From NCBI RefSeq assembly GCF_016748675.1, contig NZ_CP051534.1:806001-870000 (forward strand): a DNA stretch of 64,000 nucleotides, read 5' to 3'. Both the position numbers and the translations under genes were made by a program. Of the stretch, positions 46,716 to 49,882 are shown piece after piece (positions within the stretch are counted from its first letter, which is position 1; each line of letters begins with the position of its first letter). The notes beneath the pieces were generated by a model. It saw only the letters and a list, made by a program, of their open reading frames with translations. It did no database searches and was not told where the DNA came from. Source of the stretch: Helicobacter pylori. Its GTDB lineage: Bacteria > Campylobacterota > Campylobacteria > Campylobacterales > Helicobacteraceae.

Positions 46716-47158
46716 ATCGCATGAAACCAATTTTTTTGTTAATCTTTTTGTTGTTAGCGAGCCTTATTGCTAGAGAGAAGGACGCTTCTTCAAACCTTTT
46801 TGATTTGATTGATAAGGGGATCAACAGAGAACAAGAATTAAAAGAGCAGGAGCAAAAAACGCGCTTGAAACTGGCTCAAAGCCCTTTAGTGGCGTTAGAA
46901 ATTGTCCCCCAAGAAACGCCCTATTTAGAATGGCAAGGAGCTAGGGAGTCGTATTATTTAAAGGTGAGCGCTGTAGTGGAGAGCGTGGTTATTTTAAAGA
47001 TTGACATCAATCAGGGGCGTTCTTGCTCGCTCTACCCCACGCCTAAAAGCGTTTCTTTAGTGAGGAATCAAAGCGTAGCCTATGAAATTTTATGCGAAAA
47101 CCAGCCGCTATGGATAGAAGTGAGCACCAATTTAGGCAAACGCACCTTTCAGTTTTAA
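46712..47158 (+). CDS. Exported protein downstream of motB (HP0817 type)
   Basis: A 148-residue protein with a signal peptide (MNRMKPIFLLIFLLLASLIA) and a beta-rich C-terminal part with two cysteines (SCSLYPTP, ILCENQPLW), probably a periplasmic domain. Function unknown; coupling to motB suggests a motility link. The last about 70 bases are repeated at 49352-49422 as part of the long target duplication. Confidence 0.75.
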   Translation: MNRMKPIFLLIFLLLASLIAREKDASSNLFDLIDKGINREQELKEQEQKTRLKLAQSPLVALEIVPQETPYLEWQGARESYYLKVSAVVESVVILKIDINQGRSCSLYPTPKSVSLVRNQSVAYEILCENQPLWIEVSTNLGKRTFQF

Positions 47159-47324
47159 CCTGCAACCACATTAAAGAATGCCTTTAGCGTTTTAAAACCC
47201 CTTTATTCAAATAAGTTTGGTTATAATGCCAAGCATGGGCGTTTTTAAACAATTGATCAAAGAATTGTATGAATGGTTGCTCCATTCTATAGATGTGGCT
47301 ACGCAGCATTTAGTTGCTATGGTG

Positions 47325-47470
47325 GTGAAGTGCCCAACCGCTAAAGACGATTGGGCTTCCTAGGCTGATGTTGCCCATAGGGAGAGTTTGGTTCTCACTC
47401 TGTGTCCCTATAGTAGGGATTTTACAGAGTTTGAGCTCCAACGCATTCCCTACAGGTCTCACACATCATA
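47325..47470 (-). ncRNA. Candidate solo omega-RNA scaffold of TnpB
   Basis: In IS200/IS605 elements the tnpB 3' end together with the right end specifies the guide-RNA scaffold, and the guide is the host sequence after the right end. Exactly this segment has been kept in the mini-element. The guide would be the minus-strand sequence from 47324 downward (CACCATAGCAACTAAATGCT), i.e. the 5' part of proWX. Expression is not shown by sequence; the extent is estimated. Confidence 0.4.
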
Positions 47471-47593
47471 TCTCCAAAGGCGTAACTTTGCACACTTCCT
47501 GTGCTAGATACGAATGTATGGGGATATGATACCATGAATTAGGTAGCATTCATCCCAAACACTAAAGATATTTGGGATTTCTGCTAAGGAGTA
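47325..47593 (-). mobile_element. Mini-IS605: 269-bp internally deleted element with both ends and the tnpB 3' end
   Basis: Absent from the sister copy of the locus at 49.6 kb, so the borders are defined: the empty site reads GCTATGGCGTTAAAAATA. Read on the minus strand the left end follows TTTTTAA, the TTTAA target of IS605, and begins TACTCC with a hairpin (ATCCCAAA..TTTGGGAT). The right end is GAAGCCCAATCGTC..GGTTGGGCACTTCAC, the usual subterminal right-end hairpin of IS200/IS605. Between them, about 46 codons read VRPVGNALE..KIPTIGTQSENQTLP..., a TnpB C-terminus. There is no tnpA and no complete tnpB. Confidence 0.85.
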
Positions 47594-47855
47594 TTAAAAA
47601 TAAGCATGGTAAAATATTTGATAAAAGAATTTCATGATCGCTTCATTTACTTTATAGACTTGCTCGCGCAGCATTTTATCATCGTTGCGCTTTCTAGTCT
47701 TCTCGTGTTGGTGTTTGGGGTTTTGATTGGGGTTTTTGTGTTTTATAACTCAAAGGCTAGGGCGTTATTGCTCCCTGTGGTGAATTTCCTCTACACCATC
47801 CCATCGCTGGCGTTATTCGCGTTATTCATTCCTGTGATTGGGTGTATGAAAGCTA

Positions 47856-48428
47856 TTACTTCTCATATTTTTTCAAATATTCTATGACTTTCTCTAAAAA
47901 TTTTGGATTATCTTTAAATCTGCCAAGTCCTGTGTTACAGCTATCGCAAATCCACTCTCTGCCCCAACCTGTGTCGTGATTGTGATCGCGTACTAGATTT
48001 GCTGTAACGCCAACTATACTTCGCTTTTCACAAATAGGACAGGTAAAAACACTTCCTTTAGGTGGTGCAATTTCATCCATTTTCTTTTTCTCTGTGGAAG
48101 ATAATTTCACACCATCAATATTTTTTCGGCATTCTCTGCAACTTGGACGAGTAGTTTTTCTACCTTTGGCATCTGTTTGGTTGACTTCAAAGCCATCTAT
48201 GTTTTTTAAAATATGGCAAATATTACATATCTTTTTATCATAGCCCTTACCTGTCCTATAAATATCTATCACTTCTAGCTCACTAAAATCAACCCTTTTT
48301 AACTCATTAAGTCCGATAAATAGCACTATTGCAGTTTTTCCATTGATAGCTCTAATGACACCCACAGAATTTGGTACAATATTACCTAATTGATTTTTTG
48401 CGATTACAAAATCATCATTTTTTAGCAT
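47856..48428 (-). CDS. hpy99IR: R.Hpy99I-type restriction endonuclease (beta-beta-alpha-Me/HNH)
   Basis: A 190-residue nuclease. Its active-site region RDHNHDTGWGREWICDSCNTGLGRF gives D148, H149 and N165, the residues I recall for R.Hpy99I, whose structure is a beta-beta-alpha-Me enzyme cutting CGWCG. Four zinc-binding CxxC pairs are visible: C68/C71, C97/C100, C130/C133 and C161/C164. The N-terminal about 60 residues are beta-rich. Length agrees with Hpy99I. Its ATG overlaps the end of the M gene by 7 bases, so nuclease translation depends on prior translation of the methyltransferase. It stops 14 bases from the cassette edge. Confidence 0.85.
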   Translation of the reverse strand: MLKNDDFVIAKNQLGNIVPNSVGVIRAINGKTAIVLFIGLNELKRVDFSELEVIDIYRTGKGYDKKICNICHILKNIDGFEVNQTDAKGRKTTRPSCRECRKNIDGVKLSSTEKKKMDEIAPPKGSVFTCPICEKRSIVGVTANLVRDHNHDTGWGREWICDSCNTGLGRFKDNPKFLEKVIEYLKKYEK

Positions 48429-49240
48429 ACGAATAAGCCTTGTTGATATTGTTGTAATCTTTTTTGGGCTATTTGTATGTATTCTTTGCTTATATCTACG
48501 CCTATGAAATTTCTATTGTGCAAAAACGCCATTTTGCAAGTCGTACCCGAGCCACACATAGGATCAAAGACTATATCTCTCTCATTGCTCCAAGATAAAA
48601 TATGATCAAGTGCTAACTGCTCTGGAAATATAGCTGGGTGATTAAAGGCGATTTTGTCATTTGTGCTACCGCCTAGTCCGACTGCATAATGCCAAATGTT
48701 GTTTTTTGTTTTTTCTTTTTTGAGTTCTTTTAGGATCTTATTGTTTTTTGCATCTGCACCTTTATTAGTGACAAGCATTTCCATTCCATTTCTTGCAGTG
48801 GGTTCTTTTAATGGATTGAAAGTTTTTGGCTTTCCTTTGGATAAGACAAACATATATTCATACGCATTTGTGTAAGCATTTGAGCGCATAAAGGGCGTAT
48901 TTTTCTTTGCATAAATCATCACATCGTGCATATTAAATCCTATTTGCTGAAAATACAATGCTTGTCTAAAACTAGTAAGGCTTTTGTTACCGTTTTTTAT
49001 TTTATCACCCACAATCCAAACAACAACACCACCTCTTTTGATAACCCTAAAAATCTCATTAGCAATGTTCTCAAACGCAAAAGTATAGCCTTGATAATTT
49101 CTCAAATTATCATAAGGTGGCGAAGTGAGAATCATATCAATGCTTTCATTTTGTAATTTGTGTTGCATAAAATTCACACAATTATCTACATAAAAATTAT
49201 TTAGCAATGATTGTATGTTTGGTTTGATTTTAGCGGTCAT
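48422..49240 (-). CDS. hpy99IM: M.Hpy99I-type DNA methyltransferase
   Basis: A 272-residue amino-methyltransferase (N4-cytosine or N6-adenine) with catalytic motif IV DMILTSPPYDN (TSPPY at 39-43) before the SAM-binding motif I FDPMCGSGTT (225-234), i.e. beta-class order. TSPPY favours N4-cytosine. With the adjacent nuclease it forms a type II system protecting CGWCG if the Hpy99I call is right. First gene of the cassette; a TAGAAT -10 box is at 49269-49274, and a weak AAAGG precedes the ATG. Confidence 0.85.
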   Translation of the reverse strand: MTAKIKPNIQSLLNNFYVDNCVNFMQHKLQNESIDMILTSPPYDNLRNYQGYTFAFENIANEIFRVIKRGGVVVWIVGDKIKNGNKSLTSFRQALYFQQIGFNMHDVMIYAKKNTPFMRSNAYTNAYEYMFVLSKGKPKTFNPLKEPTARNGMEMLVTNKGADAKNNKILKELKKEKTKNNIWHYAVGLGGSTNDKIAFNHPAIFPEQLALDHILSWSNERDIVFDPMCGSGTTCKMAFLHNRNFIGVDISKEYIQIAQKRLQQYQQGLFVC

Positions 49241-49351: not shown

Positions 49352-49882
49352 TTTTATGCGAAAACCAGCCGCTATGGATAGAAGTGAGCACCAATTTAGG
49401 CAAACGCACCTTTCAGTTTTAATTTGATTGGTTTTTGGCTTTGTTTTAAAAAAGTTTACGCTTATTGTTGATGGTAAAAATTTGATTTAAACCCAATTAA
49501 GAAAAACCTTTTTATATCAAATAAGTTTGGTTATAATGCCAAACATGGGCGTTTTTAAACAATTGATCAAAGAATTGTATGAATGGTTGCTCCATTCTGT
49601 AGATATGGTTATCTAGCATTTGGTTGCTATGGCGTTAAAAATAAGCGTGGTAAAATATTTGATAAAAGAATTTCATGATCGCTTCATTTATTTTATAGAT
49701 TTGATTGCGCAACATTTTATCATCGTTGCGCTTTCTAGTCTTCTCGTGTTGGTGTTTGGGGTTTTGATTGGGGTTTTTGTGTTTTATAACTCAAAGGCTA
49801 GGGCGTTTTTGCTCCCTGTGGTGAATTTTCTCTACACTATCCCATCGCTGGCGTTATTCGCGTTATTCATTCCTGTGATTGG
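49352..49882 (+). repeat. Right copy of the long target duplication
   Basis: Repeats the last about 70 bases of the motB-downstream gene (49352-49422, a non-functional fragment ending in its TAA) and, after a divergent spacer, the promoter and first about 110 codons of proWX from 49517. Nothing else definite is seen in the 380-base gap before proWX apart from the cassette promoter and an A/T-rich imperfect inverted repeat just before the junction. Confidence 0.92.
49532..49537 (+). promoter_or_regulatory. -10 box of proWX, possible leaderless start
   Basis: TATAAT ends 7 bases before ATG 49545, the start used in intact proWX genes. Initiation at the usual distance would fall on the A of the ATG. 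The same hexamer and spacing are in the left copy (47222-47227 before ATG 47235). Confidence 0.6.

Follow-up and report, generated by a model that had tools for sequence, protein, structure and literature searches.

A mini-IS605 element at the proWX start of Helicobacter pylori and the probable descent of its RNA, HPnc0580, from the IS605 omega-RNA

The mini-IS605 of Helicobacter pylori is an already published element (PMC2993954, PMC2924317), which is non-autonomous and contains the ncRNA HPnc0580 (PMC6531487). This RNA goes back to Sharma et al. 2010, as cited in PMC6531487 and PMC8322730, and is listed as uncharacterised in the latter. A copy of the element lies at the start of proWX in the window, the stretch of 64,000 nucleotides of H. 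pylori DNA analysed here, and raises the question of what an element that holds no transposase gene, and is nevertheless found in several copies at different places, carries between its ends. The most economical reading is a mini-IS605 mobilised in trans, whose RNA descends from the IS605 omega-RNA, and we consider this reading probable.

Borders, ends and mobility of the element

The insertion is a discrete unit of 269 bp (47325..47593), which, like every other feature of the element given below, lies on the minus strand, with the left end at 47593 and the right end at 47325, so that element position p corresponds to window position 47594 - p. Its edges follow exactly from the comparison of occupied and empty sites: the joined flanks form an uninterrupted 229 bp at 100% in the unoccupied site of genome G047, which upholds the borders that an earlier note on this DNA had drawn from the empty copy. 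Along the minus strand, TTTTTAA is followed by the left end, the interior, the right end closing with ACTTCAC, and then the flank. Besides G047, the site is empty in 11 further genomes of the genus, and it is occupied only in the source genome (G000) and in G005, each of which also has an empty paralogous copy ~2.3 kb downstream.

The empty copy belongs to a duplication of the proWX start and the end of the upstream gene (47088-47841 and 49352-49882), composed of blocks of 71 nt at 100%, 123 nt at 91% and 248 nt at 96%, and G005 shows the same arrangement of an occupied and an empty copy as the source genome. Between the duplicates, a His-Me finger/endonuclease VII-like protein (47856-48428) and an N6/N4 DNA methylase (48422-49240) are encoded on the minus strand, and the duplicated region looks like a restriction-modification insertion with a long target duplication. 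In the right-hand proWX copy (49553-49625), which is otherwise complete, codon 24 is an in-frame TAG (MGVFKQLIKELYEWLLHSVDMVI*), whereas the frame stays open there in G047 and G005; translation of this copy may begin further downstream.

The left end is identical to the intact IS605 of G002 and to the IS605 copy of G013 over 41/41 nt, and the right end matches intact IS605 over 34 nt at 91%. Both subterminal hairpins, which the earlier note had taken to be kept, are present and covary. The left-end hairpin (47552..47578) is covarying helix 1 in 50 copies, and the right-end hairpin (47332..47356), followed by ACTTCAC at the element end and likewise common to intact IS605, is helix 12, with changes on both sides in 7/10 pairs. 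The left end adjoins TTTTTAA (47594..47600, minus strand), which contains the published IS605 target TTTAA (PMC2993954) and the expected TAM. TTTAA stands at the left end of 64/65 sampled full-length copies in many contexts and, together with the exact empty site, this bears out insertion 3' of TTTAA, without target duplication.

The source genome holds four copies of the element, which differ from one another by 6-18%, and more than 100 matches to the mini or to HPnc0580 are spread over about 24 of the 34 genomes of the genus. A chance origin of the segment can be dismissed because of these numbers and of its folding (z = -7.9 for the whole element). Copies are present on Helicobacter plasmids too, and the right flanks of the 65 sampled full-length elements include 59 different ones, which places the unit at many different sites and not at fixed positions only. 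Identical copies stand at different sites in G006, G014 and G043, all three of which hold an IS605 TnpB, and are a sign of recent movement. Contigs 1-3 of G006 have at least 18-24 mini copies, many of them identical, on the chromosome and on small contigs, alongside many TnpB genes of several types.

As the earlier note had stated, tnpA and almost all of tnpB are gone from the element. Its proposal of a MITE mobilised in trans is well supported by the TTTAA rule, the shared ends, the many sites at which some relatives hold identical copies and the lack of an internal transposase, and the identical copies in the three IS605-holding genomes suggest that TnpA of IS605 is the mobilising enzyme. 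The mini-IS605 would thus be a non-autonomous element of the IS200/IS605 family, moved in trans by the Y1 transposase of intact IS605, which would recognise the two end hairpins, transfer single-stranded DNA and insert it 3' of TTTAA.

HPnc0580 and the 3' end of tnpB

The HPnc0580 sRNA (Rfam RF02269) is matched at 47416..47519 over the whole model with 120.5 bits (E 1.3e-23), compared to an Rfam gathering cut-off of 37 bits, and other mini copies match the family likewise. The model breaks off within the central hairpin, about 90 nt short of the right end, and the annotated HPnc0580 is probably shorter than the real transcript, of which the model would represent the 5' part only. A -10-like box (47526..47531) ends 6 nt ahead of the HPnc0580 5' end; it reads TATAAT in 27/50 copies and TATAAC in 7/50, and is degenerate in the window copy (TATCAT). 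Its sequence and position suggest that it is the HPnc0580 promoter, and a generic sigma-70 scan did not report it. A search for terminator-like sites found none in the element region, and the transcript could possibly read through past the right end into the flank. HPnc0580 would be the payload of the element, expressed on the minus strand from an internal promoter and transcribed toward the right end.

When a named structure was counted on 50 distinct copies, 91% of the pair cells were kept as opposed to 36-41% with slid partners, a comparison that favours real over slid versions since one of the compared sequences had itself supplied the structure, and 27 pairs showed changes on both sides. 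This count replaced a structure obtained with RNAalifold from the gappy full alignment, which was poor. The two end hairpins and HP1, the first hairpin of HPnc0580, covary most, whereas the long central stem (47359..47480), which folds and is restructured relative to IS605, is mostly conserved with limited covariation. A segment of 50-65 nt that resembles the central hairpin and has no IS605 ends occurs at L042:529-595, and similar segments are found in G002, G003, G015, G016, G019, G022, G045 and G047; in G005 the segment is intergenic, just upstream of a long ORF (L042:722). Either an old remnant or a shared RNA motif could account for it.

IS200/IS605 elements transpose as single-stranded DNA, and stems form in DNA as they do in RNA. 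The structured interior might accordingly serve DNA transposition only, as a folded single strand that aids TnpA, but HPnc0580 is reported as a transcript, the -10 box is properly spaced from the start of the RNA, and HP1 is far from the ends recognised by TnpA, which makes a role in DNA alone very improbable.

The link to tnpB is carried by 38 nt of ungapped homology (47470..47507). In a local alignment, CTAGcGcAGGaA.....C.AAGTTACGCcTtTGGAGAT matches the 3' end of one IS605 tnpB type, where the tnpB nucleotides encode TRVGITRSYACGD, with a score reached by 0-2/1000 dinucleotide shuffles; under the same shuffle control, none of the other TnpB types tested attained this level. The homologous part comprises HP1 and the adjoining GTTACGC..GGAGAT segment. 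HP1 (47484..47509) recurs in intact IS605, at the 3' end of tnpB, and the mismatches between mini and tnpB fall largely in its stem. Across minis and tnpB genes, 7/9 of its pairs show changes on both sides, which 0/500 shuffles equal; the shuffle ignores relatedness, and slid controls agree. Furthermore, in a blind search of 52 TnpB loci (158 kb) with a covariance model built from minis only, all six genes of the matching type were among the top seven, and in each the match lay at the same position, in sense orientation. The best E value was 0.0076 and the other matches of this type lay at 0.17-0.76, so the single matches are weak and the argument rests on the joint placement of all six. The matching-type TnpB protein is 63% identical to that of the other Helicobacter IS605 type, whose tnpB has the hairpin architecture only.

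The earlier note had described the interior as the last about 46 codons of tnpB, a description that does not hold, as in nearly all minis the tnpB-homologous frame is closed by a TAA 21 codons past the SYA motif, and in only 4/50 copies does it stay open for 45 codons. An in-frame tnpB is thereby ruled out, and because the frame is broken while hairpin and motif are kept, the conserved entity is RNA and not protein. Its further claim, that this part is also the omega-RNA scaffold, is borne out, by homology, for the 38 nt and HP1, but not for the rest of the interior; neither blastn nor nhmmer aligns the interior with intact IS605 past the ends. No homology to tnpB was detected for the central stem, and the demonstrable homology is limited to ~38 nt (47470-47507), a short part of the RNA. 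The tie of HPnc0580 to the tnpB guide scaffold is thus partly supported, by sequence likeness and compensatory changes. According to the proposed descent, HPnc0580 would derive from the 3'-terminal part of IS605 tnpB, the omega-RNA (reRNA) region, and its ancestor would have lost the coding frame, gained a promoter of its own and had its middle rebuilt as a long stem.

Several other candidates were rejected. An ORF of 50-68 aa in another frame was considered as a TnpB tail, and tblastn in plasmids and phages returned other minis and chance matches; likeness to other TnpB tails (HRVGAS..EAVRPA, IS606-like and others) did not rise above shuffles. Short interior matches in two other Helicobacteraceae genera (L080, L081) are chance matches inside unrelated genes, and the HPnc0580 copies beside tnpB in G020 and G009, considered as an ancestral full element, look like abutting remnants. 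In G014, a mini-IS605 is inserted into a different tnpB gene, which it splits (L159:1316-1580).

The element could also be a decayed internal-deletion derivative of IS605, a functionless remnant whose structure is left over from the ends and the old tnpB. This explanation agrees with the description of mini-IS605 as 100-150 bp from each IS605 end (PMC2993954), with the divergence among the four copies of the source genome, and with the absence of TnpA and TnpB from the searches described below. We nonetheless regard it as unlikely, given that the interior fails to align with intact IS605 outside the ends, is found genus-wide with compensatory pair changes and matches a described sRNA.

A putative guide and the partner proteins

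In the reading of HPnc0580 as an omega-RNA descendant, a transcript that runs on beyond the right end would take up the flank as its guide. The putative guide CACCATAGCAACTAAATGCTGCGTAGCC (47297..47324, minus strand) is antisense to the proWX start and agrees in 28/28 nt with the empty sites of both G047 and G043, beside TTTTTAA, which stands on the 5' side of the proWX target. Any insertion would leave such a match, and taken alone it does not argue for guiding. At the paralogous empty site of the source genome (49607..49641, minus strand, with TTTTTAA at 49635-49641), the guide has mismatches at 2, 13, 21, 22, 23 and 26, so that two of them (2 and 13) fall in the first 20 nt, compared to 0/28 in G047 and G043. 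As for the earlier suggestion that the intact proWX copy would be targeted, the TTTTTAA, whose side had been doubted, is on the correct 5' side.

Searches of the source genome with PF07282, PF01797 and two IS605 TnpB proteins gave no match, and PF01385 gave a sub-threshold match only. The negative result for TnpB is informative because the same protein search found IS605 TnpB in 12-13 relatives. The element of G000 is at present a stranded copy, as neither TnpA nor TnpB was found, and guiding by this RNA in this strain alone is excluded. For the proposal of the earlier note that the element could provide a solo guide RNA for a TnpB encoded elsewhere, there is a described sRNA homologous to the tnpB 3' end, but no TnpB was detected in the genome. 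Across the genus, IS605 TnpB is present in 10-11/24 mini carriers and in 2 non-carriers, which yields no convincing association. About 13/24 carriers, the source genome included, have no IS605 TnpB, so that a TnpB partner is not needed for the persistence of the element.

This persistence, as well as the strong structure and the listing of HPnc0580 as an uncharacterised sRNA (PMC8322730), would fit a domesticated trans-acting or antisense regulatory sRNA, for which the element is a mere vehicle and TnpB is irrelevant; read-through at this locus would then be antisense to the proWX leader. The copy number and position of the element vary between genomes, unlike those of a domesticated regulator, and the homology to the tnpB 3' end is likewise at odds with such a role, which we hold to be quite improbable.

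For HPnc0580 as an omega-RNA descendant, the further step to TnpB binding and guide function is possible but doubtful. If an IS605 TnpB were present in the same cell, the RNA could direct it to cleave empty sites and thereby favour the element's own retention. The mini-IS605 would then parasitise both enzymes of IS605, TnpA for movement and TnpB, with HPnc0580 as a stand-alone guide, for the cutting of empty sites, into which recombination would copy the mini back. This full scheme, under which an uncharacterised H. pylori sRNA from the 2010 list would act as a guide RNA of TnpB, is rather unlikely.

Known relatives and significance

The element does not differ from the published mini-IS605 of H. 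pylori, with which it shares the ends, the TTTAA target, the size class, the several diverged copies and HPnc0580 inside; what is added here is the tie to the tnpB omega-RNA. The reRNA of ISDra2 consists of the tnpB 3' end, RE and about 16 nt of flank (PMC8612924), and the mini RNA resembles it in being structured, in its place at the 3' end of an IS200/IS605-type element and in a flank that would be the guide beside the target motif. In contrast to the ISDra2 reRNA, the mini RNA has no tnpB in cis, a different central domain and apparently its own promoter. In Halanaerobium hydrogeniformans, a PATE-like IS605 element is made of ends only, with a left hairpin, a tnpB tail (58 nt) and a right end (PMC7290912), but it is a single copy with no described RNA, whereas the Helicobacter mini is a genus-wide family with a known sRNA.

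In the literature covered, to which few subscription journals and preprints belong, no report linking mini-IS605 or HPnc0580 to a TnpB guide RNA was found. Relatives of IS605 that lack genes but have guide RNAs have come under discussion elsewhere. Both the element and the RNA are known, and the link of HPnc0580 to the TnpB guide RNA seems new.

To conclude, the view of HPnc0580 as a relative of the TnpB guide scaffold offers a concrete and cheap functional test for an uncharacterised RNA, and bears on whether TnpB, in addition to TnpA, is exploited by IS605 elements without genes. Moreover, mini-IS605 copies recombine with each other and invert large segments of the chromosome within a host (PMC6531487), and the persistence of these elements therefore bears on the plasticity of Helicobacter genomes.
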